Assembly: GCA_950295325.1 (NCBI GenBank)
Contig: OX485804.1
Span: 67,742,033 to 67,806,032, forward strand
Source of the DNA: Polytrichum commune
Lineage: Eukaryota; Streptophyta; Polytrichopsida; Polytrichales; Polytrichaceae
DNA length: 64,000 nucleotides
Reading direction: 5' to 3'
Part shown: piece after piece, positions 1 through 56,315 of the stretch
How positions within the stretch are numbered: position 1 is the stretch's first letter
Layout of the letters: each line of letters begins with the position of its first letter
The notes under the pieces: generated by a model
Told to the model about the DNA's origin: nothing
The model's input: only the letters and a program-made list of their open reading frames with translations
The model's database searches: none
Translations under genes and position numbers: made by a program

Positions 1-1086
1 ACCCCCATTGGAGCTGATGATGAAACCCACCGCCCCGACACCTTCAACTTCTCTCGCCTTCGTGTCGCTCAGAGAATCACAAGATCTCACGCTTCACCTT
101 TGCCTACCATCATCGAGGAGTCCTCCCCGACAATGATCGAGGTTCCACCACCCCCTCCTACTGGATTGGATTTCCGTCGTGTCACTGCCGTACAAGAATC
201 CAATGTCGACGAGAAGCTCTGGCATATTGCTCGAGTTCCTTACAATTCCTCCAAAGCATGTTGGGCCATGCATGCTGTCACCAAGAAGAAATGCACTGCC
301 AAAATCGTCTTCAACTCCAAGAGCATCCGTGCACCGGCATACATTGGAGTTTGGAACTATTACAAATTCACAACACCTAAGGTCGAGAAGTTTTTTTTTT
401 GCCCAGACGACATTGAACGTTGTGTCAAAGGATCCCGTCGCAACTGGGTCGACAAATTCTCTGCAGACCAAGAACGACCTCCAATCCCGCCCGTGTGGCC
501 TGTCAAAATTGGTACCAACCTCACTCGTCCGGAGATCCTTAAGCTTGAGAACGCCGACTTTCAGCTCCCTCAAAAAGAGCGCATCACGCCCACTCGCTTT
601 TTCAACACATTGGCTCCTCCACTCGACCTCTCTGGAGTGGACGTTCCTGCCAACCCAGACTCGTATCCTTCTTCCAGGTAGTCCAAGTCTACGAGACGGT
701 CTGCCACCGCACCATCAACAAAACAAATGCAAATGGTCGCATCTGCACGAGCTATGGATGGGACCATTTTGAAGGTGACCATGATTCCACGCCCTGGATT
801 TGGTTGCGTTATCATGTTGCAGTTCAAACCTGCACCTACTCAATCAATTTACCAACTCACAGTTAGTTCCATGCCGGAGTGTAATTGCCCGGCCTTCAAG
901 GATATGATATCAAAGTTCGGCCGTAAACGAAATTCGTTCCTGCATTGTAAGCACCTCTACTTCATATTTGTCAAGGTCTCTAATGTAGACCCTGAAGTTG
1001 ACTTGTTCATTCACGCTCCTACCTTTAGTTTCAATGAGGTCAAACTCATCCTTGAAGGGGGCCTCTTGACACAGTCTACTTCCTAG
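1..1086 (+). pseudogene. SWIM zinc-finger protein remnant, interrupted by one stop, 5' end outside window
   Basis: Frame 1 is open from the left edge to a TAG at 679-681 and stays open in the same frame to 1086, so one nonsense codon splits it. The C-terminal part holds a SWIM-type finger at about 880-955: a Tyr, then C-x-C-P-A-F, then H-C-K-H-L. SWIM fingers are known at the C-termini of Mutator-like transposases and related plant proteins, where they are thought to bind DNA or protein. The N-terminal 220 residues (Pro-rich start, several Cys and Trp) were not recognised. The TAG follows CCAG and could be part of a GTAG splice donor, but no acceptor is evident. Most likely a transposon-derived gene fragment; an intact gene with a small intron is less likely. 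Confidence 0.5.
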
Positions 1087-1303
1087 AATTACTCTCATCC
1101 TAGCACTACATTTTGTCCTAATGGATGTGGTCAGTTCTGGACCGAATGTGAACTCATAATTGATTGCTATAATAAATATAATCTCATGGATTATTTTTAT
1201 TCTCTTCAAATTTTTGTATTACAATATTCAAATGTTCCATGTCTCTATTTCCCGGTTGATCATTTCATGTTCATTTTGAAGGTGCTACCTATGTCTATCA
1301 AAT

Positions 1304-1816
1304 CTACTTCCGTTTCGCCAACCTTCTAGATGTTTCATCGTCCCTTCTTGATGGAGGTGGACCCGGTCGAACCAAATCAATGTATGACACCGTTTTATCC
1401 CTCATTCGATTCTTTAGTGGACGACGATGCGGCGACAATCCTCTCATCCTCTCGCGAAACGACAAAGACCTCGAACATTCGCCTACTACCTTCACCTCAT
1501 CCTCCCCGTTCGTCGTCTTCTCTTCATTCAAATCAACGTCTTCATTCACATCAGCGTCCTTCTCCTGCACATCCGCTCGCGTTTTATTTTTCTTTGCATA
1601 TTGTTTCTGCTCCTCCTGCATCCTCCACCTCCAAGCTTGTGTGGACTGCGAAAATAGAGTGAGTTCGTAGTCATCAGTACATTGCTTTCCAACACCTTTG
1701 TCATGTTCCGGCGATGGATTAAAAGGAACATGGGGATCTTCTAGACTCCTAATCTCCTTCTCCCATCCTAGGCCAGCGAACATGTCTCTCTCCTCTCCCA
1801 TTGTGTCCCTAAACAC
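1304..1816 (-). CDS. hypothetical charged low-complexity protein, 170 aa
   Basis: An ORF from an ATG at 1816 to a stop at 1304. The middle is very acidic and charged (runs of Glu, Asp, Lys and Asn) and the end is basic with many Arg and Pro. No known domain, signal peptide or membrane segment is visible. The opposite strand also carries ORFs here, but their Ser/His/Leu-rich products look like the shadow. It may be an exon of a transposon gene related to the SWIM remnant next to it. Function unknown. Confidence 0.3.
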   Translation of the reverse strand: MFRDTMGEERDMFAGLGWEKEIRSLEDPHVPFNPSPEHDKGVGKQCTDDYELTLFSQSTQAWRWRMQEEQKQYAKKNKTRADVQEKDADVNEDVDLNEEKTTNGEDEVKVVGECSRSLSFRERMRGLSPHRRPLKNRMRDKTVSYIDLVRPGPPPSRRDDETSRRLAKRK

Positions 1817-2344
1817 TCTACATCCGTATTGGATACGAGTCTACCTTATGTCCTTATATATTTTGAGCTGAAGATAATATCTTCAAACAATAAGTGTGCG
1901 AGTCCAAGCTCTAGAGTTGACTCACACATAGAACAAATATAAAAGTGATGGAATAAAAACGAAGCAAGTTGGTCGCCATTTGTATTTTGTTTGACTAATT
2001 CTTCAATTACACCAAATTCGATAAAATCATTTTCAATTATATTTTTTTGGAATCACCCTTGGTTTAAATCATATACTTATCTATTTTATCATAATTCTTA
2101 TATCATTTTTGCACTTCCCATATTCTAAATTTAACGACTCTATTTCAAATTCAGATCATTTTCATTTATTTTTGGACCTATCCATTCCACGGAAATAGGT
2201 CATACATTTTTACTATTTTGGAATATTATTGGAATATTCCTTACTATTTAAAAATTTGCTAAATTTAGTCTGACAAGTTTGCTATTTTTTCTTCCTCTCC
2301 GCTCTCCGCTCTCCAAATCTCTGCTCTCCGCTCTACGCTCACAT
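1817..2344. repeat. AT-rich spacer ending in a repeat shared with 47840-47940
   Basis: No gene seen. From about 2180 to 2345 the sequence contains CCACGGAAATAGG and then a pyrimidine-rich stretch built on CTCCGCTCT ending in CTACGCTCAC. The same features in the same order occur on the minus strand at 47840-47940. It is a dispersed repeat, possibly the promoter or end of a transposon family. The family A copy starts immediately after it. Confidence 0.45.
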
Positions 2345-5300
2345 AGATGTGTTGTCCGTCCGGCACCTCCCTGATCTTACCCAGTCCTAACGACGGCTAT
2401 CTCACGTAGACGTTACCCAGACATCCGGAATAATGAGGTTTCCTTCCCACTACATTCAGAAAGGATCCATATAACTGCAGTCGGATCCGATCCGGGTTTC
2501 CTCTCCTTTGTCCTATCCGTATTTCCTGCTCATTCATTCCCTCTAGATCTGCAACATTCTCCTAACAGTCCGTGCACCAAACAAATCAAAATAGATTGAG
2601 AACTAGAGCTTTATTGAGTGGGGAGTGACAAAATACAACATCGGAGAAGAGAACCCTTCTCATGCTCCTTATTCAGCCTTAAGTAGAGACTGTAATCTCT
2701 AACTGCGAGTGGCGGCCCAGTTGGCCGCCCAGAAAACCCTAACAGCGAGAAATCCGGAAACTCATCCTTCGCGGAATTTCCGGATCTCGATCCGCTTTTT
2801 GCGCTGACAGAAAATTTGAATTCATAGTTTTGCCAAAATTCAAAAGGTATCCTAAACATGTCTGCCTAATTCTAATCTACCTACAGCCGCATGCCTAAGT
2901 CTAAACTAAGTGGTACGATGCTTCTTCGAAGCCGTCCCGTCCTTGGAGTGACTTGCGGGCCCGCTGATGGCAGAGGAGCCTCCTCCGGGGGTCAAAAGCC
3001 ATTGGTCCTGCAGCCTCGTAAATACCCTCCTCATGTTTGGGGAGGGGGCGATCTCTTCCTCGGAATCGCCTATCGCGGACGGATCCTCTCCCGGTCCGTC
3101 ACCCAATCCGGACCGCGCTGTTCCGGAAGCCTTCTTCTCCTTCCGGGAGCTCCGGATGGGTGAAGCATCACCCCCGGGGGTCCGTTCCCTGTTTCGGCCA
3201 CAAGAAACCGAAGTCGTCCGGGGATCCCTTGCTGACATCGCGTGTGAGGGTGGGGGCGCCCACTGCTCCAATATCATACAATCCGGAGCAGGAGCTGGAG
3301 AGGCCTGCGACATTGGTGCCTTTCCCCTATCCGGAGTCTTCGTCCGGTCCGGTGTCCTCATCCTTTCCGGAGTTCTAGCCCTCTCCGGTGTCCTGGACCG
3401 CTTTGATGCCCTGCCCCGATCCGGATTCGGTAATTGCCCACGTCCGGACCTAGCTGACCGTTCTGTGCTCTTCCGTCGAACTTGGGATGAGCGGGTCCGT
3501 TCCGGGTGAGGAGTCTTCTCTCGATCTGGAAATCTTTCGGATTCCAATGGCTTGGGAGTTCTTGCTGGCTGACTGGGCCCCGCACCCGCCTGAGAGGCCG
3601 GTACTAATTCCACCTCCCCTATAACCTCGTACAGCGTGCCCGTTGGAGATCCGGGTGGACCTGGATAGAACACCCGTCTGGGAGCACCACTCGGAGGCAG
3701 CAACTTCTGGATCTCCTTGAGCAGATCCTTCATCGAGGGGGAATACTTCACCAGGATCTGGAGCGTTTGTCTGGCAGAAGACGGATCCGCTGACTCCATC
3801 AATTGGTCGTAGAGGTGTGCCTTGTTGACGACTTCTCCCGGATGGCCCACTAATTCCCGGACCCGGCTTAGGACTACCGTTTGTTCCGTCTGGTACTTCC
3901 GGATCTCCTCATTTTTTGGGTGAGCACCTGCGTCATAGCAGCCACCTGTGCTGCGAGCTGCGTCTTCTTCGTCTCCAGGGTCTCTACCTGCTTCCGGTCC
4001 GTCCGCTTGGCCAACTCCCGGAGGATATTTTCGGGTCCACAGTTGTCTAAGGCCCGGTTCACCCCGCGAGTGATATGCTCCATCCGGAAATACTAGTTCT
4101 GGAGTTCCATCAACTCCTCCCGGACGCGCTTGAAGGGGGCTTCCGGAAACTCAAACGTTGATAGGTCGATGTCCCTCCAGGGAACTTCCCGGCTGGTTCC
4201 GGCTTCCTATCGGGGTGGTGGCGAGGCCGGTTTCCGGACCTTTGGAGGGGACGAAGCGGGAGGTGGTTCCAGAACCGCAGTGTCGCTCGAGTCCTCTGTT
4301 CCGGTTTCCGCAATCTCGACTTCCGGACCGAGCTTGTACACCACCTCGTCTTCCGCTATTGTCAGCATATCCTCTTCCGCTTCATTGATGCAGCCGTGGT
4401 GCTGGTAGAGATGGAGGATGTAGGGAGAGAGATAGGAGGGTTTCCGGCCAATGTGGGGGAGAGATTTCTCCACATATTCCTGAATTAACCTACCCCAATT
4501 GACGGGCCGGACTCCGGACATCGCTCCGAACAGGGTGTTGGCCATGGTAATGCTAAGCCGCTTGGGTTTTTCTGGACTGAGTATGGGGAGGATGAATTCT
4601 ATTACTCTCCGCTCCCTAGGGTACCGGCAATTCCCGGGATGGAATCCGTCTTTCGGATCAGGGTCCATTCGGAATTTTCCTACATAAAAATTATCCCGGC
4701 GGCTAGCCCAGCCCTCGCCCTTTCCTCGCGGAAATCCATAAACCCCAGCCCATACCTCCGACGTCCATTTTTCTGGATCCTACTTAATCGTCCTAAACCA
4801 CTGATTGCCTCTCTCGAATAGAAATTCACGCAATGTGGTCTCCGCCCGAAGGTTCCAGGGCTTGGCGAGTAGTCCCTCGCAACCCATCCGGCTAAGATCC
4901 TCTATGAGCTCCTTCAACTCGGATCCTCTCTTTGGGATGGCAGGCGATACGGGTTTCACTAGAATCGGGACTTGCTCCGTCTCATCTTCCTCTCGCGCTT
5001 CCGACATTTTGCTTCGCGGCCTCGAATCCTCAACAATGCCCGGATTCTCCCCTCCGGAATTCTACCCGCTAACCACTACGGAATCCCAGCAAACCAACTG
5101 TTGGTGACTCGAAAAAACAACTCACCATTCATTCTCTTAACAATGCCGCTCGCGCAAATGGCTCGGAGAAGAGGAAAATTTCCCTTAAGTACTCTCTCCC
5201 TCTTTCACTCTTTCTTCTAACGGGTCTGGTTCCGTAACCGTTTCCCCCGCAACCGTTCGGAATCCGTTGTAACCGTCTCCCGGTCCAGACGCTCCGGACC

Positions 5301-5519
5301 GGACCGTTCCTAAACGGTCTTCCCCGGTTAATATCCGGTCCGGCCAAAGTATCCGTTTTAACCATTTTAACGTGTAAGGCGGATGCCTAGAACCTTATTT
5401 CTTAAAACAACTATCCTACCCTAAGAAACCCTACTTTAATACCATCCTCAGGGTATTATCCGGGTATTAATCCGGTTCGGAAGCCACTCCGGACTTCCGT
5501 GGATTTTTGGGCTCCCACA
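2345..5519 (-). mobile_element. Family A element, truncated minus-strand copy (A2)
   Basis: Homologous to the complete element at 41941-46068, in opposite orientation. Its 5' terminus is the complement of 5519, beginning TGTGGGAGCCCAAAA, which matches the other copy's TGTGGGAGTCCAAAT. The coding region, the AATAAA signal (complement of 2610-2615) and the start of the 3' repeat region align. The 3' third is missing: similarity ends near 2350, where an unrelated repeat begins. CCGGA/TCCGG is strikingly frequent throughout. The 5' end cuts an ORF at 5520. Because the other end is lost, a target duplication cannot be checked. Confidence 0.8.
2906..5007 (-). pseudogene. Broken copy of the family A 690-aa protein
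   Basis: Segments at 4780-5007, 4207-4668, 3874-4083 and 2906-3850 in different minus-strand frames align in order with the protein at 42608-44680. Recognisable blocks are the N-terminal MSEAREED, KPWNLRAE, TMANTLFGAMSGVRPVNWG, the region with GHPGEVVNKAHLYD, and a C-terminal tail of repeated RTPER/RTPDR. Identity is roughly 60-65 percent in the best N-terminal block, so the copies parted long ago. Several frameshifts and stops separate the segments, so it is not functional as one protein. The 3' piece alone (314 codons) is still open. Confidence 0.8.
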
Positions 5520-5951
5520 CAAATCAACGGTTGCACAAATATTATCATCAAAATTTGATAATATATACACAGTATTATCATTAGACTCCAATTTAACATT
5601 TGGCATTTGAATTGTGGATGCGCCAAATTGATTTGTCAATACAACAGTTGAAGTTTGCATTTGGGACTCAGAAAGACCTATCACTCTGAACGAACTTGGC
5701 CCTAAAATCCACATCGAACCATCATCAGTTCTATTCTTTTGGATCATGATTGTTTCAAAGACTTGTCCATCCGCAGAAAACATCTCCTGCTCTAAATACA
5801 TGGTTCCCGTCTGGAGATTGAACCTCAAACTGAGAAGATCCTCTAAGACACCTACGTGACCATCATCTTGAAGTGATAATGTGAATGAAACAAAAGATCT
5901 ATGAGCTCTAATGGTGGCATAGAGATGGAATGCAATAGATGCACTATACAA
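5520..5951 (-). pseudogene. Unrecognised ORF cut by family A insertion
   Basis: About 144 codons are open on the minus strand from 5951 until the family A terminus at 5519, after which the frame runs on into element sequence for 24 codons. The part outside the element looks like real coding sequence (many Ser, Thr, Asp and hydrophobics, with a block FNLQTGTMYLEQEMFSADGQ). I do not recognise the family. No ATG is evident at the 5' end; the frame stays open upstream, so it may be an internal exon. Confidence 0.35.
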
Positions 5952-6981
5952 TACTAATAAACGTAATGGACTCTTTATGTTGAATGTTATATAATATAAT
6001 ATTGAATGAAATTGAAATGCATGACATCATAACATCTAATAATACAAAAATAGATAACACATAATAACAACCAAAAAATATTTGTAGACGAAACATAGAA
6101 CCCTAAAACAAACCCTAAGAAATATCTCATTTGAAAACCTAATCATATAGAACCCAACCCATTAGTGGGATGTGCATTATAATTTCATCATAACATTCTT
6201 TGTAAACAAGACCTAGTGTGCAGAAAAGAGGACTTAGAAATGCAAGAAGAAGGGTGCACAACTTTGGCAAAGAATAAAAGAAGGAAGAAGGGTTTGAAGT
6301 TTTTTAGTACGAAGTAATTACATAGGGCCAGAATAGAACAACAAATGGGTAGGGTCACTTTATGTGACATCGAAGACACTGCACGCGTACTAGAGTTTCC
6401 TGCAATAGATGAAAACGAGAATGTTGAAATCGAGATGCAAGATAGCAAATAACCCCTTATTTTTGGAAATGATGATGACAAACGAGTGAGCAACACTGCC
6501 AACAATATGTCTGATACATAACAAGAAGGAGAATATATCTCCATTTACATTGCATCGGTAAGTATTTCAAGGTTTTATGTATAGATGAGGCAATTTTCCA
6601 ATTGATATCACCTCTTGAACTTCTAAAGTTCCAAGCATAGAAATCGTCTTTCTTACGCAAAATTTTATTGTAAGTAATTTGAAAACATAAAACCACATAA
6701 AAAAACAAGGAATGTCGTCAATCAAAAACATTGTATGCAGATTAGTGGCTACTACGTCCAGAGCAATGTGATAAGGCAACATGAAAATCTAAACCCCAAA
6801 AATCAAAAGGGATTTTTTTTCCGTTTTGAAACAACTATTTGCGGGGAATTTTTTCCGTTTTAATCCACTCGCGTGGGGGATTTTTCTTCCGATTCGAATT
6901 GTGTTCCCGGACATCGTTTTGGCCAAAAGCTTTAGGGAAACCGAACGTTTTGGAACGGCTAAGAAGAAGGAATACCATTTC
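5952..6981. other. AT-rich region without a recognised gene
   Basis: Only short ORFs of unremarkable composition. The frame of the next gene is open from about 6826 but its first ATG is at 6982. From 6800 to 6890 there are three spaced occurrences of a TTTTTTCCG-type motif, perhaps part of the promoter or 5' leader of the next gene. Nothing else seen. Confidence 0.3.
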
Positions 6982-9830
6982 ATGAGGGTTGTGCGTAGGA
7001 GGCACACGGAGACTGTGCAGAGGGGGGCGAATGCTCAAAGTGGAGCCCCAATGAAGAAACCGAGCGGAAGAACAATGACCTGCGTATATACTCCAACAAA
7101 TGAGCTCCTTCATCAAGCGGCGAACAAACCACCCACATCTGCCAGTGTGTGCACAACGTCCGATAGCAATGATGAAGCGACGGTTGGCATGGATGTCGAG
7201 TTGACAACGCTATCATCAAACCCTTCTCTTGAACAATATGTAAGTCTCTTTGTTATTCTATCTATAAGTGTTTTTCAAATATTTGTGGTCATTATCATTT
7301 TTGTAAGTGCTTTGAAAGAAAGGTTTGTAATAGAGGTTTCGGTACCGAAACCCCTATTCCAAGACTTTCTTTGAAAAAATATTCTTCTCATCATTAATTT
7401 CATGTTCATACCATAGCAGCAGCCCTCATTATTTTTCATGCTCGTTTCTTCAAAAGAAGTTCTGGGATAGGAGTTTCGGTACCGAAACCCCTATTCCACT
7501 ACCTACTGTAAAAAACCTACCTCTTCTTTGCATGTTTTGTGTCGATGTTAGGCCATTGTACTGATTCTCTTTGTATGGATGTTTTTTGAAAGAAAGGATC
7601 TTCCAAGTTTTAAGAAAATTTCTTTACTAATTTCATGTCCATATCATAGCGGCCGCCCTCATTATCACACATGTTTGTTTCTTCAAAAGAAGTCCTGGAA
7701 TAGGGATTTCGGAACCGAAACCCCTATTCCACTACTTTCTTTCAATTTTTGAATTTTTTTTTTACTAATTTTATGTCCATGTCACAACTGTGGCTTTTAT
7801 TTTTTTGTATGGCTATTTCTTGAAAATAGAGTGGATGATTTTTTTTACTTATTATAAGCTTTGATTTGGTTGTTCATATATAGGATAACATTTTGGCGGA
7901 CACCGACATTGAAGAAGCAACATCAAAAAGAAAGTTGGAGAAAATAAATTTAAACTCTGTCATCAATATCTTACGAATTCGACCTCTTTCTAAATTTTTT
8001 TATCCATTCTTATATGCCACTTAGAGCCATTGCCAATTCTAGAATTTGATGTTTAGTTGTTGGAGAATGAATTTCTTAATGAATATAGAGAAGGTGATCG
8101 TGTCTTGTATGTTTCTATTGTCAACGATTGTGGGGAGAGTTTATGTGTAACAGGGGACAAGTTGAGTTCTTGGGATCCAATATGGCAACAAGTGAACGAT
8201 GTTTTTAAGCAGTCACTTTCCCGAGATGAGGACTTAAAAGTTTTTAAAGGTAAAATATTTTGGATATAGAAGGGTAACCACCGAGTTACAGCATGGAGTG
8301 ATACATAAATAAAGTTCATGCTGATGAGGAAGAATGGTATTATAGTGTGGATTTCATATGCCTTAATGCAGTAGATGCCATTGGCATTCTCTTGGATGCT
8401 ATGAATGACGTCAATAGGTAAGGCCTAAAGCCCATCAATTAAAAAAAAATTAAGGTCAATTGCAATTTTTTTTGTCAAATTGAATCATATATTTACAAAT
8501 TTATTTTGTAAAGTGGCAGATCCACAGAAAATGATCACGTGAATATCAATTTGGTTCATAAAATCCATCGCATTCGGAGTTTTGGATCTTTGAAGCTAGA
8601 AGAATTTAAAAAAAAATTGTCCCCTAAGAATTATGCTAAATGCGAGAATAAATACTCATTGACATACATGGTATTCTCTTACTACAGACATTTTTGTAGC
8701 TTTCATCTACAAGGTGAGTCTTTAACATCTGAATGTCTACATCAATTTCATGTTCTTATATTAAGTTGTATTATTATTTTAAATTAAAAATTTTCAATAT
8801 TGTTTTCAGCGTAATGTTGTGACAACATCAGAAGAGGTTTGTCATGAGTATAGGAACAACACTCCATTGGTCCAAAGATCTCCTAGGCTTGAATTGCATG
8901 CTATAGAATATGCGGTGAGGAAAATACTGAGGGCTTATAGGTCAAAGAAATTTAATAAATTCCTTGCAATTGCGGATCCCGCAAATGACGTTGATTTTGT
9001 GCAAGATGTAAGTCTTTACATTATTCGTTTGATTTATGTAATATGTTTTGTTACATTATATATTTTATATTCAATATTGTTTTCATTGTTTTCAGATAAA
9101 TGGGCATTGGAGTTCTAATCCTAAACCAGAAATAACCTTAGAGAAATTGCAAAAAATTGCAACAACTCCGGTAGATGGCAAGTATAAAGTGAAATGGTTG
9201 AAGTGGTGGAATTCACCTCCGATGACACGCGAGGCTTTGCGTTTTTACCTCCTAATTTTTATAGATAATAACCTTGATTTGTGGTTGGTAAAAGCATCAT
9301 TTTGGACTTAGGTAATATTATGAATTATAATTGTAAATGTATTTATGCTTATGAAAGCATTATAATTCTTATATAGCGCTTGTATTTGTTAAAATAATTA
9401 TTTGACATAACGTTTTATGTGTGGATTCTAATTTTTAGTTGGAGGAGGGTGCCATCAATGAGTTTCATGGCATTCTACCACAATTGGGTGATATGATTTG
9501 GAATAATGTCCTCCACATTGGAAATTACATAGAGAAATGACATTGTCTTCTTTGGAAGAAAGCGTATACTCCAATTTTACGCGGGACAATCATTTGAAAA
9601 ATCCTCAATATTGATGAAGAATCATGAGGGCGAATTGGCAGTGAAACGTGTGATATATAGGTATTTTTCTACACTTGACTATTTTGAAGTAATAAAATTT
9701 ATCTTCATTGGTGATATCGAACTAAATTTGTTTATTGAATTTGTGTAGGTACCTTACAAGGTAGCTTGAATCCCAAAAAAGAAATTCCATTGCAAGCATT
9801 GCCTTCATTCTTGAATTCATGGGCTGACAG
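6982..9830 (+). pseudogene. Family P pseudogene, N-terminal and middle part, with GNHR (ParB-like) motif
   Basis: A multi-exon gene read from splice signals. Proposed exons: 6982-7239 (donor GTAAGT), one from 7884 (donor not resolved), 8057-8417, 8520-8713, 8810-9007, 9096-9287, 9439-9660 and 9749-9830. Exon 8057-8417 encodes FKGKIFWI, a TAG, then KGNHRVTAW; a frameshift follows and the frame continues as NKVHADEEEWYYSVDFICLN. G-N-H-R-x-x-A resembles the G-x-x-R signature of the ParB/sulfiredoxin fold. Exon 9439 starts LEEGAINEF and exon 9439-9660 ends HEGELAVKRVIYR. Both junctions match exons at 51811-51507 (LEKGVDGE and EEGPLAIKRVAYR) with the same intron phases (0 and 2). Stops in the last two exons and the frameshift show decay. 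Family recognition is inference; the exon structure is seen. Confidence 0.55.
7330..7735. repeat. Three dispersed copies of a palindrome inside intron 1 of the family P pseudogene
   Basis: The 16-bp perfect palindrome GTTTCGGTACCGAAAC occurs at 7336-7351 and 7473-7488, and a variant ATTTCGGAACCGAAAC at 7706-7721. Each is followed by CCCTATTCCA, and two are preceded by CTTCAAAAGAAGT, so they belong to a longer irregular repeat. They lie between the first exon (ending at 7239) and the second (from 7884). Confidence 0.75.
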
Positions 9831-10339
9831 GTTAAGTGACCAATGCATATTTTCAGCATATTTTATAAACTTTCAATATAAGTAGGTAATTATAGATATT
9901 TTTATGTTTCATTTACTAACATTTAAGGTACAATAATATATCAAGGTTTATTTTTAGATCTCTAATACTAGAATTACATGGTAATAAATCCTTTGACAAG
10001 ATATAGAGCATGAATTCCATGGTAATAGGTGTTTTTTTTTAAATGTCAAATGTCCCCTTGCCAAATAATTTAAATTATATGGAGCATTTTCTACAAATAG
10101 AATCTTATATAACATGTTATTATTCATTACTCAAATGTTACTGCTCACCACTCACATGCTAGCTTCCCTCTACAATGACACTACCATACAAATACAAATG
10201 TTGTATGTTTTTTTTTTTTTTTTTTTTTTTTAAGGTCCTCCATACATGTACATAACTTCAAGTTATAGTTCGTGTAACATATGTATATATTGTACAACAA
10301 AGTTTAAATTAAAACCCCTTTTGTGCACTCACATATAGT
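9831..10339. other. AT-rich spacer with a 24-base T run
   Basis: No coding signal seen. A run of 24 T lies at 10208-10231. The family P gene would continue into this region in an intact copy (a donor-like GTTAAG is at 9831), but no further exon could be recognised. Confidence 0.4.
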
Positions 10340-10740
10340 TGTATGTGTGTAGAGGCACCACGGGCCTTGGCTTGGTGGTTAGGGCTCATGGCCCCCAATG
10401 AGGAGGTTGTGGGTTCTATTCCCCATGCCGGCGTGGTGCTCACCGCCTTAGTCCACCCAACTATGGTGGGGGGTCCTTGGACCTTGTTGTATGGGTACCT
10501 CAAAGCCCTTTGGGTGGATACCATGTCCGGTATCTTCAAGGCACTAGTGGCTAGCTAGGAACTAGTATAGTGTGTCACTATAGTGTCCATCCTCGAAAGG
10601 GGAGAGTAGTATTGTCCCAATGTCCCCTTGTCCAGTGGGCATCGGGTCATTGGCATTACGAACGGACACTTTATTCACGCCGGCCCCTTGCTAAAAAGGG
10701 ACCGGAGTTTCTATCTATCTATCTATCTGTATGTGTGTAG
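10340..10740 (+). mobile_element. tRNA-derived SINE with 13-bp target site duplications
   Basis: The insert is 10353-10727 (375 bp), flanked by a perfect 13-bp direct repeat TGTATGTGTGTAG at 10340-10352 and 10728-10740. The head resembles a tRNA gene: an A-box-like TTGGCTTGGTGGTTAGG at 10367 and a B-box GGTTCTATTCC at 10412-10422, spaced as in a Pol III internal promoter. The tail ends in repeated CTAT. SINEs are copied by LINE machinery. The perfect target duplication suggests a fairly young insertion. It is not a functional tRNA gene. Confidence 0.85.
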
Positions 10741-11217
10741 TACATTGCAAATCCCCATGGATAATCGTCAAGGGAATGAGCTAGCAACTTAAATGAAATA
10801 GAAAGGCCATCCATGCAGAGACTACAACCCTTCAATTTTAGAAACCTTAAAATTGTGGTGAATTACACCCTAACCTCCATAGTATCACCATCCTTAATGT
10901 CACTCCTTCTCTTGTATCCCAAACAAAGGGAGGTCACTATTGACATATTATTAAATCATGTGAGAAAACATATTGGGTATTTTTAATTCAATAGAGGAAA
11001 AAATTATACAATTTATGATTTTGGAATTACTATAGCTTGGATAAAATGATTGATACAATATTATATCTAAAGTAAAGTAGGTGAAAATAATAGGCGGTCT
11101 TTCATTTTTATTCATAAAGTAGGGTATGTAATATTTGGACAAATGAATACATTTGGATTGGATGAGAAATTGCCTTAATTAACTAAAAATCATCCAACTT
11201 AGAAGTTGGCATTGGAT

Positions 11218-25207: not shown

Positions 25208-26024
25208 GTTAATATGTGGGTGAGCCACTTGGGGGGCTTGGCTTGTGGCAATCTAGTGTGACATCAGCCTGCATGGGAGCCGTTAGAAAGCCCCAATCAG
25301 GTCACTTACCTTATTGGCATATATGTGTATATATACATCCGAGACTCTACTTCCATTCTCATCAATTTCCTGCCCCATGCATGACGCTGAGCCTGTGCCA
25401 CTACTACCACAACGACTCAGATACTCACCAGCTTCCGGCTTCACGATGATGCATCTCCACCAACCGATCCAGCATCTCGGTAGTTTGTCTACATTGTTGC
25501 ATTTTCTTTTCTCAACCATATATACACCACCACCCACCTTATGTATGAATGGCATTGAGTTCCATTCCCTTCAAGAAGTCTGTGCAATCTGACACGATGT
25601 TTGCGAGCACTGGTGTTTTTAACTTACGAATTGCAGGACTTGACACATGAACTTCAGTTGCAGCTTAATTAATCATTGGCGGGTATAAATCTTGATTTCC
25701 GTTTGAACCGAGTTCAATTTGAGCCTAGTAATTTGCACATGAGCCATGTTTACCTGTTGGTCAGCATTCAGCAACTTTGGACAATGTCACAATTCTGGAC
25801 ATCTACAGTGGATGAGTCGCCCATGGTGGCAGACTTGTCTGTGGGAAGAGGTCGTGTCTATGGAGTGTCCATCGTTGGTTACTGCAGTCTCGCATGGAAC
25901 GTATGGGATCTCATGAAACGATTGTTGTGTGGTTGTAGATGCAGCTGAAATCAAGAGGGAAGGAGAACAAAAACATCGTGTCTCTGGGTTACTATACCAA
26001 CCATCAAACCAGTCAGCTGTCTGC

Positions 26025-42376: not shown

Positions 42377-42607
42377 GGGTCCCTTCCTTCTCCCTCACAC
42401 TCTTTTCTGGAAAAAGGCAACCTGTTGAGAGAACGAGTGGTGAGGTGTTCCTTCTTTCGAGCCGCCAGCAGTTGGATTGCTGGGACTCAGCACTTTTCAG
42501 TCACCGGCAGTGGGCTTGCCGGGACTTTGTGGCACTTAGACGGAAGAGAAGGACTCCGGAAGAGAGAGGGAGAGGTTGCAAGCCAGAAAGGGTGAGAGGA
42601 GAGGAAA

Positions 42608-46597: not shown

Positions 46598-48239
46598 CTG
46601 CATTAGAAATGCAATGATAAGCTACAGCAGGGTAGGAGAATGGCACGACGCCCACACCAAAGTTTTGGGAAACCAGAATGTTAAATCAAAGCACTATCTC
46701 CAAGAAGATACATGATTATACAAACCCAACCCACATTAAGAACCAATGCATCCCCTAGCAATGGTTCTTACAAATTCACAACCACAAACTAAGTGTTCCG
46801 ATGGAGCTCAATCCCAATATAATCCAACTGAGAATACCCAACCTGAAGAAGTTCCAGCTGCATGTCCTAAATGTAGGCTCTTGTTAACATATCAGGATTC
46901 CAGTTGACAATTGGAATAATTGCTCTCTTTCAACAAAGAGGAAGTAGTTAACAAAGGTTGGGATCTAGTAGTGAGCTTAGAATATGTGCAATTTAATAGA
47001 TTTTTGACTCAAGGTTTAGCTTAAAAATTGTTGATCTATCATATAGCAGTGTATGTATGAGTACTAAATGGATTTGAAAGGTTGGCAAGAGGTTTAGTCT
47101 TAAGGTTCTGAGGTTGTTTGAGATTTGTTTAACCTCTTGTGGTCTTGGTGTAAGACACCAAATGATGAACAAACAACAACATCATGGCTCTGCTTTAAGT
47201 CAATCAAGATCCTAGGGATTCAAAATCCAACTGTTTACATGTTGACGTCTTCCGGATGTGCTTTTGCTTATTTGAGGTATGATCTATAGATTCCTCTAGA
47301 CTGATTAGTAATTCTCCTGAAGTCTGCAAACTCAACTGGTTCATCTGTAACTAATTGACAATCTCCCCATACAATAGTTTGAACCCTAAACCCTAACTCA
47401 TTCTATGCAAGGTAGCTTGGCTAACTACCCAACAAGAATCGAAAGGTTGGATTTAGTAAAACCCCAGCAGGTGCTTACATCTTACTTGCATTAATCCCTC
47501 AACAAAGTTTGCCCTCAACACACATTCAATAACCCTAAACACACCACCCAACACCTAACACACTACATCCATTTACTGCCTACCCCCAAACCCCACCCTC
47601 ATTAGAAACCAATACATCCCTTAGCAATTGTTCTAACAAGTTGCAACCACAAACTAGGGCTACATAAATTCAAGGACCAACAATTGGTTGCATCATACTT
47701 GAATATACCCCTTAACATGAAACCTCAACACACATTTACCAACCATAAACACACCATCCAACACCCTACAACCTACATCTAACACAAATGTATTGCATAC
47801 AAACCCCCACCCAAAAATTGATGATTAGCAGGGAAACTTAGTAATGTGAGCGTAGAGCAGAGAGCGGAGAGCGGAGAGCAGAAAATTTTGACTTTGTTGG
47901 ATAATTTTAGGACAAGCAGTGCCTATTTCCGTGGAATTTATAGATAGAGTGAATTCAATTTGTTGGAAAGGCACCCCATTCCCGTGGAGATTATAACGCA
48001 TCTTAGTTCGAGAAACAAGTAGAACCTAAAGGCGTGGAAGAATGTATTTGTTATCAAAGATCTTATAGTTTAGGTTTCAAATGGTTTCATATTAAATTAG
48101 GGATGACGTCATCAATTGAAATCGAACAACAACATAAGAATCCACCTTTGGGAGGTAGGCCTAACACAAAATCAGAAGACCCTGCCATTCTGAATATTCA
48201 CAACCGTTGATTTATTTTGTTTTTATCATGTGTGAAGAC
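46598..48239. other. Intergenic or intronic, with a shared repeat at 47840-47940
   Basis: No coding exon recognised. 47840-47940 on the minus strand matches 2180-2345: CCACGGAAATAGG, then CTCCGCTCT repeats, then CTACGCTCAC. It could be the promoter of the transposase-like gene family. Confidence 0.35.
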
Positions 48240-48649: not shown

Positions 48650-49025
48650 CCCTAAATGAGAATTTGGCCTACCCATCTAGTCTCACTTCCGAAGTGAGAG
48701 CCCTCCAAAAAACACAAATATTCAACATATGAATCAAAGTTGAGAACCTGGTTCACACATCTAGTCTCTCGGAAGTGAGAGCATCCAAAAAACACATACA
48801 TTCATAATATGAATCAAAGTAGAGAATGTGGCATACCCATCTAGGCTCTCGGAAGTGAGAGCATCCAAAAAAACACAAACATTCTTAATATGAATCAAAG
48901 TTGAGAATCTGGCCTACGCATCTAGTCTCACTTCCGAAGTGAGAGCATCCAAAAAAACAAAAAGATGAATCATATGAATCAAAGTTGAGAATGTGGTTCA
49001 CACATATAGTCTCTCGGAACCGACA
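48650..49025 (+). repeat. Tandem repeat of about 90 bp with palindromic heads
   Basis: Four to five units, each with a CTCTCGGAAGTGAGAG- or CTCACTTCCGAAGTGAG-type palindrome, then CATCCAAAAAACACA, CATATGAATCAAAGTTGAGAA and a CACATCTAGTCT tail. The last unit ends in CTCTCGGAACCGACAGGGTC, close to the palindrome of the large satellite further right. It lies just downstream of the family P pseudogene on the minus strand. Confidence 0.8.
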
Positions 49026-49398: not shown

Positions 49399-51811
49399 TC
49401 AAGAACTTGGACTACCATATCTATCACTATCCTCGCCCTGCTCGGCCTTTATGTCTAGGAAATCCAAAACTAGTTTGTTGAAAGGGTGGGTGCGACTAGG
49501 AGGTGGAGACGATGCTTCCGCTAAAAGATGGGCAAGGTCAGCAGCATACGAAGAGAGCTCAAACATCGTCGAAGGGGTTGCAAACATGTCCGCATTAAGG
49601 ACATGAATCGGACTCTCAATATGAACTTTGAAAATATAGAACGAGAAAACAAAAAAAATAGCACATACCAAAAATCCGGAATCGAGAAGATAGAAATGCA
49701 AGCAAGCAAGTAAGAAGCCAAGAATGAACTTACGTATACAACAAATCGAAATTGCGCTTCGCCATCTTCCGGGGAGGAAGAGCAAAAAATGATCCTCGTT
49801 GTGGGGCAGCATGCTGAAAAATGTGTTCTTATTTAGTCTCACGCATGGGGAGGAGGATGGACTTGAAGATATCGATATCCAACTCAAGCGCCACAATATG
49901 GCGTTAAATGGATCAATATGCAATGATGAAACCTCCTAGGAGAACGAAATACGAGAATGTGAGCATAAGGAAATGAATGGAAAATGGAACAAGTAAAAAA
50001 AAAAGCAAAACAATAAGGAACAAAGTCATGAGAAACAAAAAGAAGAAAAACCAATCAATGTCACATTGCCAATTCATGATAATGTCGTCCTTGTCCGTGA
50101 GGGCGGAGAAAATGATGGAGAAGAACTCGGGGTACTTTTCACGAGCACCTCTCCAAGGCACTTCATCTTCCCTTAGCGATTGGTTTGTCGAATCGGCGAA
50201 GCTATTGAGCCAACCATCTCTCTTGAGATTGTAACCCATGTCTTCGAAGTCCGAGGTCCGGACATTCAAAACATAATAATTATACATGACCACCTTGATG
50301 AAGAACTTGCGAGTCTGCAAAAAATGAGAAGGATAGAATTAGGAATACAAAAATACAAGGGGAAAAAAAATAAGAATACAAAAGAATAAGGCAAAAAATG
50401 AAATACCGACTCGGATGGATTAGTAGGCGATTGGAGGTCGAGGTCATTCATGCCAAACTAGTATTCGGCAACATAGAAGTCCTCTATATGTGCCCAGTTA
50501 TGTAATGATCTAGACACATCAGGATCAGCGGCGTGTGCAAAGACAAAAACACCGTCATCATGAAGGTTGGCGTTAACAAAGGCAAACAAAACCTCAAAGT
50601 AAGTCGAAGAACGCTTGTTCCATTGAGGAACATCGGACGATGATGACAAGATGCCCAACACACAAAGGTTCTCTGGCACATCTGCGAAGAGTAGATCAAG
50701 TCTTGTGTGCACCTTAGGCTTGCTATTAGGACGAGTACGACCCGCTCTAACCTGCAAATAAAAAATCCAAAGAAAAGTATAAGAAAACAATTGTTGAATT
50801 AAAATGAATGAACGGGAAAACAATAGAATGTCGTACAAACCTTAGTAAGGAATTCTCGGATGCGGCGGTAAGCTGGAGGGGGAACCTTGGACCGCATGAG
50901 ATCCTCTATGAGCTCCCCATGTCGATATTCTTAATCAAAGAGAGAGAAGACGACTTCTCCAATGAAGTTGCGGAGGTATCCGGAGCGAAGACCTTCCTTT
51001 TGCGTGGCACGGAGAGAATGGTGACACCGCTATGGAAAAGAACTGGAACATGGTCCCGAGAAGGGGTAGAAGAAGTTGTCGTTGGACTTCTGACAACTGT
51101 GGTAGCTGGAGTGCGCTGAATGGAGGCCTTGGTGAAAAACCGAGTGGACACTTGACTAGAGGCCACCCTCTTACCTTTGCCCTTGGCCTTCACCGGTGCA
51201 ACCTCTTTGTCATTGGTGGGAGGAGCCGGATTCTCATCTTCTTCCGGCTCTTCCTCCCTCCAATTCAATTACCTCAGGGGCAGAGGAAGCGAGGTTGTTG
51301 TAGAGGGGTTCTTCCACGTCAAGAACAAATCCACGAGAACAATCTAAGTACCAATCACCAGCGACCAAATGCACGCATGGAAATTTTGCAAGTTGCATGG
51401 GCGTGTACACACAAAGATTTGAGTTGTCATCGATCCACTCGTCAAGCAAAGATGGCAAGGACGAAGAAGGAAGAGCATTCTTTATGACAAGCTCACGGTG
51501 AATGTACCTACAAAGTGAAGAAAATTAGAACAAAGAAATGGAGTGAAAAGAAACGAAGATATGAAGGACAAAAGAAAAAAAAAAATGATTAGGTACCGGT
51601 AAGCAACGCGCTTGATAGCTAAGGGGCCTTCCTCGAACTTCACAAGATCGAGCCCTTTGGTGAACTTTAAGACACCCTTGTCCCACAAAATGGGCCTCCA
51701 ATGCTCGACAAAATGAGCAGGTTGGAAAAGATCTTCCATAGAAACCCAGTCAATGTCGATGGAGCATTCATTTTCAAATGAGGCGATTTCACCATCAACC
51801 CCTTTCTCCAA
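49399..51811 (-). pseudogene. Family P pseudogene, C-terminal part, DNA methyltransferase-like
   Basis: Minus-strand exons inferred: 51811-51597, 51507-50841, 50751-50407, 50314 to about 50055, 49935-49734, and a last one ending at 49399. The third exon has LDLLFADVPENLCVLGI, then VNANLHDDGVFVFAHAADPD, where A-D-x-P resembles the DPP(Y/W) motif of amino-methyltransferases. Exons 4 and 5 read KYPEFFSIIFSALTDKDDII, MNWQCDI, then GGFIIAY, then RHIVALELDIDIF. This resembles the motif I region and the G-R-h-x-x-h-E-x-D block of N4/N6 DNA methylases. Decay is clear: two frameshifts in exon 2, a stop at 50458 where Trp is expected, stops between GGFIIAY and RHIVALE, and a lost donor after exon 4. 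Its first exon joins the family of 6982-9830. The methylase assignment is by motif only. Confidence 0.5.
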
Positions 51812-51837
51812 CTAAGATAACACAAACATAAAGGTAG

Positions 51838-52517
51838 TTTGAGAGGGTTGGATTCTAGTGCATACACAAAGAATTTCAACATATGAATCTAGCTAGTCCA
51901 CATACATACACATACACATTCTAGTCAAAATCTGGTCCAAAATACCGCAAGGAAGACCCTCTCGGTTCCAAGAGGGTCGGATTCTAGTGCATTCCAAAAA
52001 AAATTCAACATATGAACCTAGCTAGTGCACATACATACACATTGAAAAGGCACCTCATTCTAGTCAAAATCTGGTCCAAAATACCACAAGCAAGACCCTC
52101 TCGGTTCCGAGACGATCGGATTCTAGTGCATACACTAAGAATCTCAACATATGAATATAGCTAGACCACATACATACGCATACACAAGGAACCTCATTGA
52201 AGTCAAAATTTGGTCCAAACTACCGCACCCTAGACCCTCTTGGTGCCGAGAGGGTCGGATTCTAGTGCATTCCAAAAAAAAATTCAAATATGAACTTAGG
52301 TAGTCCACATACATACACATACACAAAGTACCTCCTTCTTGTCAAAATCTGGTCCAAACAATCACACCCTAGACCCTCTCGGTTCTGAGAGGGTCGGACA
52401 CTAGTGCATTTCAAAAGAATTTCAACATATGAACCTACCTAGTCCACATACATACACATCCATATTACAACCCATTATTGTCAAAATCTGGTCCAAACAA
52501 CCGCCACCTAGACCCTC
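51838..52517 (+). repeat. Satellite array, left block, about five units
   Basis: Units of about 140 bp, each with a CTCTCGGTTCCGAGAG-type palindrome, CTAGTGCATTCCAAAA, TTTCAACATATGAA, AGTCCACATACATACACATA and GTCAAAATCTGGTCCAAA. The block starts inside an intron of the family P pseudogene and is cut at 52517 by an LTR insertion with a CCCTC duplication. It is the same array as 56316-62285. Confidence 0.9.
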
Positions 52518-52795
52518 TATCAGCCACAAACCCCCACCCTTAAGCGTCGTAGTCCAAGTGGAAGTATGTGACTCACACTCTTCTCCTAAGGCCTTGTGAT
52601 CTTTTGAGATTGCTCCAACTCCCAATGTTAATTCACCCACACAGGTTTTATTCCATTGTCAGAGGTACAAGCATGTTGAAATGCCTTTCACAAATTTTTC
52701 CTCATGCCACATCATTACTCATTGGTGCCTCCCACAACACTTAGACCCAAGACTACGGGGGTGGGGAACCACCAGTTGTGGCTAAATCCCTTCAA

Positions 52796-53317
52796 TGCAA
52801 TCCCCCAGGTACGCAACTCCCATATTATACGCAGGGGGCATCGTACTTAAAACGGCTTAGAGGACGGCTTTTGTAAAAATTATATCAAATTATATCAAAT
52901 TAAAATGATCAAAAAGTTGGGTGAAGACCAAATTAAATAAAATGAGATGAAAAAAAAGTTGGGTTGCATATTTATTAAGCCTCCCATTAAAATTATAAGC
53001 CACGAATAGTTGCCTCCCATTAAAATTATAATTCATTCACAATGTTAAAATTTTATTAAAAAATCCAAAAATTTGGGTAGTTTGACCTATGGTACCTGTA
53101 TTAAAAAAATCATATAATTAGATTTTTAATGCAATTATATGCTTCAAAATATATTCATTTCCTATATATAATTACATTTTTGGATTCTTTGTTAGAAGGG
53201 CTACAAGGGTTTCCTACATTAAAACAAATTGTATCACTCAATATTGGACTAAAACGCATTATAAGTGATTATAATCAGGACCATATAATACGGGAGTTGC
53301 GTACCCGGGTGCAATCC
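52796..53317. mobile_element. MITE with 8-bp target duplication
   Basis: The element is 52804-53309 (506 bp) with inverted ends of about 28 bp: CCCAGGTACGCAACTCCC on the left and the complement of CCCGGGTACGCAACTCCC on the right, continuing as ATATTATACG/GTATTATATG. It is flanked by TGCAATCC at 52796-52803 and 53310-53317. hAT-like by duplication length; the duplication could also be read as 9 bp. The interior is AT-rich, without genes. Confidence 0.85.
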
Positions 53318-54102
53318 CTAACTAACCATTCACACCTCCTTTCTACTTATAAGTAAACCAACAACTGCCTAAGTATGTAGTCTACCCTACAAACCCACCC
53401 AGCTGGTCTCAAAAGCCAACCATCAAATCTACGATGTCCGGTTGTTGGAGTGTGCCTGTCATCTCCCGTCGTTACCCGTCACTGCCCTTCACTAGTTGGC
53501 CGGTACCTCGGAGATACAATTCGGCACTCCCGGCTCCGCCCTCTTCCCTGCCAGTGAGCTTCTGCAGACTAACCACCTCTCTTCTCCCCTTCAGAGATCG
53601 AGCGCTTCAACCATTTGTGCATCAGTGCTCCTCGCATTTCGAACCCAATGTCAGCGGACCAGATTTGAATTCGGCATCCTAAACACCTTTCCCACATTCA
53701 AAAGACACTGTGCTCCGCTGAGCAGTGGCTCATGTCGAGATCAATTCTGAGTTCCAATGAGTTCCCTTCATCTGATGGCCTCTCATGCTTGTAATCTCTT
53801 CTGGTTCGGACCACTCAGTTCCTCCGAGGTTGCCCAGGTAGCTCCCAGCCTCCCCCATCTGAGGGGGCCGCTTCTTAGCGCTCACCGAAATTCTTCCCGA
53901 ATGGTCCTCCCTTGGCATTCAGCTCAAATGCGGCACCCACCTCCAATCTGGGAGGGCCCCAGGACATCGCCATCTGCTCACCTAGCCTCATGTGAGGCCA
54001 AACCCACCACCCTTAAGCGTCCTAGTCCGGGTGATGATGTTGAGAATCACATGTATTGTTTGTATCGGAAGGATGATCTCTTTGCACCCAAAGGCGTTCA
54101 TA

Positions 54103-54327
54103 TCATTTTGAATCACTTTGTTTATTAGTGGTAGCCTCTTGGCTTTGGGCCGCGTTGGCCTTCTCAAGGGTCCAACCGGCGGCCTTGGCAACACAAGCTC
54201 TCAAGGATATCCCCCTTTGGCCTTTGATTATTCTCTTCGTTACTTGACCATTGCTAGAGTCTTCCGCTTTCTCCATCGGCCTAACCTCTTTTGTTTCGCC
54301 AATGTGGATGTCCTCCGCTTTCTCCAT
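54103..54327 (-). CDS. LTR-encoded micro-ORF, 74 aa, copy B3
   Basis: ATG at 54327, stop at 54103. The N-terminal part is duplicated (MEKAEDIHIGETKEVRP followed by MEKAEDSSNGQVTKR), then the core RGISLRACVAKA and GWTLEKAN shared with B1 and B2. It is longer than the others because of that internal duplication, but the frame is intact. Confidence 0.55.
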   Translation of the reverse strand: MEKAEDIHIGETKEVRPMEKAEDSSNGQVTKRIIKGQRGISLRACVAKAAGWTLEKANAAQSQEATTNKQSDSK

Positions 54328-54609
54328 TTTTTTTTATAAGTGATCGATTTTCTACCAAAAAGGATGTAAGTGTTGAAAAACACTCCCTTAATGGTTAAAC
54401 ACGCTCCCACACAATTGCCTTGCAGCCACCCTTAATTCTAACTATACTAAAAGTCCTAACTACTTTCCCATGGCTAATTAAGGTTTTAGGGAATCTAATG
54501 TGATAGATGCTAGAATATGTTTGTGCCTTATTGATTAGTTCCAACTTCGAGTAGCCTCTTAGCTTAATTAAATGTAAATGGTTTACCCAACCAGGTAACC
54601 TTTTAATTT

Positions 54610-55110
54610 AACTAGCCTACAACTTCGGCACTCCAGGGGCCTTAAGCCAGACTTCAGTGCTTCAAGGGCTTAGCCCCGCCTCGGCGCTCCAGGGGCCTTA
54701 AGCTAGACTTCGGTGTTGCAAGGGCTTAGCCCAGCCTCGGCGCTCCAGGGCCTTAAGCTAGACTTCGGTGCTGCAAGGGCTTAGCCCAGTCTCGGTGCTC
54801 CAGGGCCTTAAGCTAGACTTCGGTGCTGCAAGGGCTTAGCCCAGTCTCGGTGATCCAGGGGCCTTAAGCCAGACTTCGGTGCTGCAAGGGCTTAGCCCAG
54901 TCTCGGTGATCTAGGGGCCTTAAGCCAGACTTCGGTGTTGCAAGGGCTTAGCCCAGCCTCGGCGCTCCAGGGCCTTAAGCCAGACTTCGGTGCTGCAAGG
55001 GCTTAGCCCAGCCTTGGCGCTCCAGGGCCTTAAGCCAGACTTCGGTGCTGCAAGGGCTTAGCCCAGCCTTGGTGATCCAGGGGCCTTAGCCCAGACCTCA
55101 GTAACCCAGA
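54610..55110 (-). repeat. Minisatellite in LTR B3, 55-bp unit, about nine copies
   Basis: CTTAAG recurs at 54641, 54697, 54752, 54807 and 54863 and on to about 55090. Units contain AGACTTCGGTGCTGCAAGGG, CTTAGCCCAG and TCGGCGCTCCAGGG. It is at the same relative position in the LTR as the 40-bp array of B1 and the 43-bp array of B2. Confidence 0.88.
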
Positions 55111-56315
55111 AACTTAATCAAGCCGAACTAAAATTTACCACAATCCACCTAATCACCTAATTAGTCAAAGGCCCACATGCGAGCCTTTCAACTACACACT
55201 AAATGTAATCCTCTCAAGATGCTTAATCGGACAATGGATAACTCTTTTATTCTTTGACTAATAAACTAACTAATTAACTAACAACATTAACTAATCTACA
55301 CACGTGGTTCCAAGCTCTAAGAGCTCACCTCCTTGAGAGGATGAGAGAGAGAGCTTAACTCCTTCACTTCACTAAAAACTAATCAACCCACACACGTGGC
55401 TCAAGCTCTTAAGAGCTCGCTCTCTTGAGAGCACTTGATAGAGAGAGAGGTAAATGAGAGAAAAAACACCTTAAGTAGCAAAGAGGGAGAGAGAGAGAGG
55501 GAGAGAGAGGTGAGGATAGGGTGAGAGGATTAGCACCTCCAATCACAATCCTTTAACCTTCTCCTCCAAAGTAGGGACTAATCCCCATCCACCAAGCTTC
55601 CTTCTTCCTAAACTAACAAGGTAGATCCAAAAGTGGGCATTTAACCCGCGGAGCTCACCTTGATTCACCTTACCCCCTACTCACATTATCAAGGCATACT
55701 CTTATTGAAATCAAACCTTGAAATAATCACACAACACCACCTAATGCCTAAAGTTAAATCCACACCACTCTTCACTCTTTTTATGTTTTGTGAATAATCA
55801 TAACACATCAAAGTCAAACTAAAATTGGTTTCGAAGAGTTAATCACCACATGTGGGCACCATTTTGGGCTCACACCTCAGTGTATTCAATCAGCCTCACA
55901 TTCCTTCGCCCGAGCTCCTCTCTCTCCACCAGACCTGTTTTTCGCCCAACACACCGAGAGCTCTCCTTGCTCGCCCGCAGCCAACATTCGCCAGCCTATG
56001 GATTCGTCCAGTTCCAGGAATTTCTAGGGGGAATAGTGAAACTCCCCTTAATTGGACACCTTCAATCTTAACTTGAACAATTCAGTCCCAACTCCTACAT
56101 AAGGCTCACATAATTAACCCCCTTCCCGGCTCACTAATTAATTTCTACCCTCACTTTCTACCACTAAAACCCATACACTAACATAACGTTTAAAACCAAA
56201 TTCGAAATCAACTCCCACTCTTTTTATACTTTTTAAATATTGATAGAAATCAAACCTTCCTTTTAACTGAGTTCTAAAGGTTAAGAACAGATCTGGGCAC
56301 CATATTGGGCTCACA

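Follow-up and report, generated by a model that had tools for sequence, protein, structure and literature searches.

The gene family represented in the window by two decayed copies, here called family P, belongs to a high-copy, large, recently active DNA transposon as its accessory gene and is not a host gene. The window is the whole stretch of 64,000 nucleotides analyzed here (C2:67742033-67806032), within a genome of 408 Mb. That genome gave 4 matches to the LEAFY SAM domain, compared with 0 in 14 control genomes, which points to a land plant or a near relative as host. On the interpretation we favor, to which we give roughly even odds (a probability of about 0.5), the encoded protein would act in trans to recognize its own element, reading the palindromes of its own family.

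Decayed copies in the window and an intact gene

Copies A (7-9.8 kb) and B (49.4-51.8 kb) are decayed versions of one gene, of which an intact representative, E1, is present in the same genome; the sequence-only reading had proposed to look for one among seedless plants. The E1 gene as modeled encodes 1,088 residues in 11 exons separated by 10 GT-AG introns; because the model opens with D-M the true start is not fixed, and a preceding exon is possible. Exon 6 of E1 opens after a phase 0 intron (L-E-K...) and closes with ...AIKRVAYR, its final Arg split by a phase 2 intron, and is followed by exon 7, which reads YIMRELVVKNALASSSLPDYLSDW. With E1 exons as tblastn queries, and with matches above preset E-value limits dropped, copy A was assigned to exons 2-5 plus the end of exon 6, and copy B, on the minus strand at 51811-49420, to exons 6 to 11. 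The start of exon 6 and the exon 7 fragment of copy A are too decayed to be recognized by the E1 exons, and a tblastn match for copy A exon 7 (109-159) was set aside as spurious. The features of the window are as follows.

1..2357, plus strand: left end of a third copy, reversed (blastn and tblastx of E2 positions 1-2231)
1-1083, plus strand: C-terminal part of the third copy's transposase (tblastn, 68%)
1304-1840, minus strand: small open reading frame of the third copy
2357: tip of the third copy's left terminal inverted repeat
5448..6026, minus strand: remnant of the N-terminal transposase part belonging to copy A's element, in divergent orientation to copy A (open reading frame; collinear with L017; tblastn 5918-5478, 31%, E 4e-11)
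6983..7237, plus strand: putative copy A exon 1 (frame open between an ATG and a GT donor; in DNA 79% identical to L017)
7335..7718, plus strand: three palindromes TCGG[TA]ACCGA (flanks TT/AA and beyond) in intron 1 of copy A
7884..8418, plus strand: copy A exon 2, ParB/sulfiredoxin-like, with GNHR, frameshifts and a stop (tblastn)
8521..9305, plus strand: copy A exons 3, 4 and 5, matched at 8521-8676, 8810-9007 and 9096-9305 (tblastn)
9439..9854, plus strand: broken exon 6 of copy A, with the beginning of exon 7 (L017 homology up to 9854)
47831..48136, minus strand: right end of copy B's element, terminal inverted repeat (84-85% to the E2 right end)
48657..49019, no strand: 84-bp unit in 4.4 copies between the copy B gene and the right end, with one TCGGAACCGA at 49014
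49420..51811, minus strand: copy B exons 6 to 11, methyltransferase-like end with several stops; exons at 51811-51599, 51506-50838 (frame broken), 50751-50413, 50311-50057, 49933-49739 and 49608-49420
51841..62280, no strand: arrays of a 139-bp unit at 51841-52518 and 56315-62280 (Tandem Repeats Finder), many units containing ACCCTC-TCGGNNCCGA-GAGGGT palindromes

Locus L017, which is A-like and carries exons 2 to 8 in part (tblastn, E1 exons), is collinear with the window at DNA identities of 88% over 5519-6897, 79% over 6917-7591 and 87% over 7671-9854. Its homology to copy A breaks off at window position 9854, and because the collinearity ends there copy A is a truncated element. Both window copies are interrupted by stops and frameshifts. 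In copy A exon 6, LEEGAINEF (9439-9537) and HEGELAVKRVIYR lie in different frames with a stop after EK, so that its description as one continuous exon from 9439 does not hold; exon 2 is likewise broken by frameshifts and a stop. Copies A and B were left out of the protein alignments, and L018 and L021, which contain stops, out of the exon 2 alignments.

Six young copies were spliced, and three of these (E1, L007 and L008) are open throughout and carry both halves in order. E2 lacks nine residues of exon 2, in frame; exon 9 is frameshifted in E3, and E4 combines three stops with an altered acceptor before exon 4. The fetched young copies are ~97-99.8% identical to one another over the longest aligned blocks. 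These findings bear out the proposal that the window holds complementary halves of one intron-rich family: the exon shared by the halves has the same phase 0 and phase 2 boundaries in E1, exon 7 comes next in E1, and the start of copy A's exon 7 lies inside the L017-collinear DNA (87%). Chance similarity of the shared exons is likewise set aside by the number of relatives, copy B exon 8 yielding 915 candidates genome-wide, of which the best 150 were scored; with copy A exon 2 as query the best 150 were taken from 925 candidates. Many of the best 150 exon 8 matches, often with stops, lie on contig C4 of G000 at about 41-59 Mb, a cluster that perhaps marks a low-recombination or sex-linked region.

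Several other features of the window were noted. A 412-residue open frame at 25917-27155 (plus strand) has an aspartate-rich VLDDFLFD stretch and resembles the terpene synthase-like genes of microbial type in seedless plants. The open frame GVYGFPRG...SMANTLFGAMSGVRPVNWG is present twice, at 2906-4779 (minus strand) and 42596-44680 (plus strand), and is probably part of another repeat family, and a different transposase-like open frame at 31037-31399 (minus strand) was also seen by eye in the right flank of E2.

The carrier transposon

Alignment of three copies having different flanks defines the left end of the element as GGACGACACTTGTATGTGAGCG and the right end, reversed, as GGGAAACTCAAGTATGTGAGCG, which form imperfect terminal inverted repeats of about 50 bp. 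Target duplications of 10 bp (catccatccg, actgtgagca and cagaaactgc) are found in all three elements for which both ends were read. The E2 element is 16,518 bp long. Its transposase gene starts at 4818 and reads on the minus strand to about 1148, its palindromes occupy 6331-11163, and its accessory gene, divergent from the transposase, starts at 11348 on the plus strand. The catalytic stretch of the transposase as query gave 1,582 candidates, and 26 of the best 150 match at 99% or more. A transposase neighbor within 25 kb, in any orientation, accompanies at least 62 of the best 150 exon 2 matches, and in at least 60 of those 62 the two are divergent with the transposase upstream of exon 2, compared with a mean of 2.8 and a maximum of 8 linked matches over 200 runs of random placement. 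The linkage counts are lower bounds, the best 150 matches having been used for both exon 2 and transposase.

The idea of an ordinary plant gene family of low copy number that left two pseudogenes here is refuted and retains next to no probability. Nothing speaks for it beyond the two copies in the window, and the 915 exon 8 candidates, the terminal repeats with their target duplications, and the transposase linkage all stand against it. The sequence-only reading had suggested an unnamed plant family, which is right in that the gene family is real and wrong in that it is a transposon accessory gene. It had also recommended a check of copy number and flanking inverted repeats; the family is high-copy and the right end of copy B's element was located, and comparison with the E2 ends found no terminus for the element of copy A.

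The transposase shows, by eye, the patterns DGTY, D..C..H and a SWIM-like CxC..CxH, with DSKH in place of DGTY in the L018 copy. A Pfam scan of the transposase returned no MULE or SWIM match and nothing credible, and none of the 142 PF10551 matches listed was recognized as this transposase. MULEs have terminal inverted repeats and target duplications of 8-11 bp; the three elements have both, with duplications of 10 bp. Taken together with these duplications, the sequence patterns make MULE-like the best label for transposase and element, short of proof.

A ~2.1 kb insertion with the ends TGTGAGGCCAAACCCCCCACCCTTAAGCGTCCG occurs in young elements, at L014 5446-7542 (inside E1) and at the left break of E3, and similar ends were seen by eye near window positions 52530-52560. 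An earlier assignment of E3 as 5' truncated was withdrawn; an insertion is the likelier explanation of its break, which shows the same terminal sequence as the insertion of E1.

The two parts of the protein

A profile (A1) built from 7 rows of the methyltransferase part, exons 8-10, finds DpnA (E 4e-5) and CcrM (E 0.007) in the PDB, among 9 matches at E up to 10. Profile-profile comparison with the methylase domains of five ParB-methylase open reading frames gave a probability of 87 (E 3.8e-6, 192 columns), and three control pairs in the same test gave 0.3 or less. There is also a PHROG methyltransferase match (E 0.023); Pfam gave no match on this part, and no relatives of it were found in viral contigs. 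The DPPY of CcrM aligns to D[ILV]P[ED], with motif IV followed by motif I in register, the CcrM-type order, and a stretch on the SAM side, DWQC..GG..., is conserved. Judged by these profiles a CcrM-like amino-methyltransferase domain is present, in agreement with the methyltransferase-like end that had been proposed, which the profiles match to N4/N6-methylases.

Motif IV of active N6-adenine and N4-cytosine methyltransferases is [DNS]PP[YFW]. In family P it is readable in 12 of 16 loci, exon 8 being missing or the match starting past the motif in L018, L022, L023 and copy A. Eleven of the 12 have D[ILV]P[ED] and L021 has NLLE; DPP[YFW] occurs in 0 of the 12. The domain therefore looks disabled, its catalytic motif apparently given up in this lineage, and the replacement of DPPY makes it more likely that the protein reads DNA rather than methylates it. 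The GNHR motif lies at residues 188-191 of 1,088, away from the middle of the protein where it had been expected. Sequence searches for ParB in the part that contains it were negative (Pfam on 8 rows and a PDB profile), as was profile-profile comparison with 21 ParB-N sequences using either the full exon or the exon without insert columns, and a first AlphaFold2 model (12 rows, pLDDT 62) had no PDB match. A second model was built from 25 rows with a different first sequence (mean pLDDT 70.6); for its alignment 5 of 20 fetched exons were dropped for stops, plus L066 and L022. Foldseek placed 6sdk, a ParB bound to CDP, first among PDB entries for this model (E 0.04, probability 0.99), and among 33 listed PDB entries 30 carry one of the names ParB, Noc, KorB, PadC, sulfiredoxin, serine kinase or SbnI, the rest being two without such a name and one BrxU; the best Z is 8.8. 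Viral models contributed further matches, to proteins of ParB type and to a DNA methylase from a phage (best E 0.0014). A ParB/sulfiredoxin fold for the GNHR part, as had been suggested, is thus supported by the predicted fold of the second model, and sequence homology is unsupported, the sequence profiles having matched nothing.

Fusions of ParB-N and methylase in bacteria, archaea and viral contigs (L030, L032, L033, L035 and L036) resemble family P in having ParB followed by an amino-methyltransferase. Their methylase is homologous to that of family P by profile and their ParB-N part has no profile match; unlike family P, they are open frames of about 440-500 aa with DPPY intact. CcrM and DpnA likewise match family P by profile and differ from it in the residues of motif IV. 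Bacterial-type ParB genes are present on contigs C12 (61 kb) and C23 (20 kb) of G000, which are probably microbial contamination of the assembly; one of these genes, L030, encodes a fusion of ParB and methylase and shares 75% identity with a viral contig.

The closest system by description is Sola1-1_Ec32 of Ectocarpus, a 21.5-kb Sola1 element in which a 1,104-aa protein with ParB-like and methyltransferase parts is encoded opposite the transposase; the protein is likened to transposon proteins of green and red algae (PMC12477816). The sequence-only reading knew of no named plant family with this plan, which is already published for algal transposons. Family P shares with the Ectocarpus protein a length of about 1,100 aa (1,088 vs 1,104), the ParB-like and N4/N6 methyltransferase parts, and the placement of the gene, within a giant DNA transposon and on the other strand from the transposase. 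It differs, by description, in its land-plant host, in a MULE-like element with 10-bp duplications in place of Sola, in the replaced catalytic DPPY and in the palindrome arrays described below (PMC12477816). Among the papers listed in literature searches this one alone was relevant to transposon ParB-methylases, and no land-plant case was met there. Family P is best classed with the algal transposon ParB and methyltransferase proteins, as a variant of their kind from a land plant.

The Ectocarpus authors suggest that such a protein may bind and modify its own transposon (PMC12477816), and an active methylase that marks its element by N6-adenine or N4-cytosine methylation in its own palindromes would agree with the methyltransferase profile and the conserved SAM-side stretch of family P. 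We consider this quite unlikely here, the changed catalytic motif disfavoring self-modification of the algal type: none of the 12 readable loci has DPP[YFW], whereas the five comparators retain DPPY, although these were excised using that motif.

Palindrome arrays, constraint and a proposed role

Palindromes were compared at 16 hand-picked loci. In an unbiased scan of 10-bp palindromes, TCGGNNCCGA ranks top in L017, L023, L025, L027, L029, E1 and the stretch of copy B, and ACGGNNCCGT in L024, together 8 of the 16. The core CGGNNCCG exceeds the maximum of 60 shuffles at 10 of the 16 loci, which adds L026 and the stretch of copy A. It is unenriched at the other six (L018-L022 and L028; ~4.7 kb upstream plus the gene), including L019 and L020, though these are nearest (61-63%) to the A-like clade that has palindromes. 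In the 16-kb stretch of copy A the top palindrome is a different one, at chance level, and there are only 3 core sites in the gene, compared with eight palindromes in L017.

The flanks fall into four types that correspond to four accessory clades and enclose the common core CGGNNCCG: GAGGCC-TCGGATCCGA-GGCCTC in the E-like clade (E1 and L029, with one arm changed in L025), ACCCTC-TCGG[AA/TT]CCGA-GAGGGT in the B-like clade (copy B, L027 and L023), TCCC-ACGGATCCGT-GGGA in L024, and GGTT-TCGGTACCGA-AACC in the A-like clade (copy A and L017). The commonest spacings also differ by clade (64, 127-128, 136 and 139 bp, with 169-170 bp in L029). Four young elements carry 27 to 44 palindrome copies each, and the 22-bp E form has 1,903 exact copies genome-wide against 0 for the reversed control. 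The B-like protein of L026 is accompanied mainly by half-sites, TTCCGAGAG, in an array with a spacing of about 75 bp (oriented positions 2256-4445), and L028 has three copies of a 30-bp palindrome, GGAAGTGCTTTC-TGCTCC-GAAAGCACTTCC (oriented positions 415, 969 and 2174).

The arrays are found upstream of the gene or, in copy A, within intron 1; L027 also has one between exons 5 and 6, and L023 one after exon 5. Recombination of the upstream array with an array in intron 5, like those of L027 and L023, may have removed exons 1-5 from copy B. Within the window, 26 of the 29 TCGGNNCCGA sites are in copies A and B and 23 of the 29 in 47831-62300; outside A and B there are 11 CGGNNCCG in 45 kb, which represents background.

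Because such repeats expand easily, and because 6 of the 16 loci with the same gene are unenriched, the arrays might be passive hitchhiking tandem repeats unrelated to the protein. This we regard as rather improbable, since four clades share one core with different flanks and spacings and no palindromes occur in six other MULE loci (19.7 kb). Palindrome type may nonetheless track accessory clade through linkage alone.

The accessory gene is under purifying selection in two clades, with dN/dS of 0.13-0.17 over 962-964 codons in E1, L029 and L025, and, for the B-like pairs L026/L027 and L026/L023 (389-801 codons), of 0.08-0.11; the ratio is 0.43 in L019/L020, and five further pairs are saturated. 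Exon 2 falls into the groups E-like (80-86%), B-like (74-77%), L024, L028, L017 and L019/L020, with 47-68% identity between groups. The histories of accessory gene and transposase differ in the pairs measured. The silent-site difference between E1 and L026 is 0.74 in the accessory gene (946 codons), and that between E2 and L026 is 0.14 in the N-terminal part of the transposase (296 codons); the E-type and L026 elements are 90-91% identical in DNA up to position 4798, about the transposase start codon, where the similarity stops. The gap is smaller for L025 and the E-type (0.41 accessory vs 0.19 transposase). A likely explanation of these few cases, two pairs having been measured, is that elements have swapped either the accessory cassette or the transposase.

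The second gene of MuDR is the model for a transposition cofactor, and a protein of this kind, binding element repeats and helping the transposase to assemble or the element to reinsert but taking no part in silencing, would suit an accessory gene that is constrained in two clades and divergent from the transposase in the same element (at least 60 of the 62 neighbors within 25 kb). Against it are the arrays of E elements, which lie between the genes and do not adjoin the terminal repeats, an objection tempered by the small repeat array near the right end of copy B, and the differing histories of accessory gene and transposase in the pairs measured. On balance a cofactor appears unlikely.

The VANDAL transposons of Arabidopsis are Mutator-like. 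Their VANC proteins bind short motifs, which form arrays in introns and upstream of the transposase gene VANA, and remove silencing; of the two, VANA is the more conserved (PMC5735166). Family P resembles VANC, in the passages seen, as an accessory of a DNA transposon with family-specific motifs arrayed in introns and upstream and with a more conserved transposase; VANC has DUF1985/DUF287, and the VANC21 motifs have one orientation, compared with palindromes in family P (PMC5735166). Pfam scans of pieces of the family P protein gave no DUF1985/DUF287 match. It is this layout, shared despite unrelated protein domains, that favors a self-recognition factor. Under the favored interpretation the protein, probably a dimer with ParB/sulfiredoxin-like and methyltransferase-fold parts, would bind CpG-containing palindromes of its own family, in which the core CGGNNCCG would be common and the flanks would give specificity. 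It would load onto arrays in introns and between the two divergent genes, and the bound protein would keep the element promoters unsilenced or prepare the element for transposition.

A broader version, which we put forward tentatively and think less likely than not, is that a captured prokaryotic ParB-methylase with a replaced catalytic motif became a second, independent form of anti-silencing in plant transposons. It would read CpG palindromes through the fixed CGGNNCCG core and family-specific flanks, and gene and array would be swapped as a cassette among elements with one nearly identical transposase, so that sibling elements could escape silencing, and each other, separately.

What is new here is the land-plant host and MULE-like carrier for a ParB and methyltransferase accessory gene, the palindromes with core CGGNNCCG and family-specific flanks beside or inside the gene, the purifying selection in two accessory clades, and an element pair whose accessory genes are saturated at silent sites while the transposase stretch compared is similar (90-91% in DNA). 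The algal reports suggest binding and modification of the protein's own transposon and name no target in the passages seen (PMC12477816). The family-specific palindromes with their common core provide a concrete candidate target, and the loci offer a range of naturally occurring variants of both protein and site. If the favored interpretation is true, the VANC idea would extend past Arabidopsis to another land plant and to unrelated proteins.
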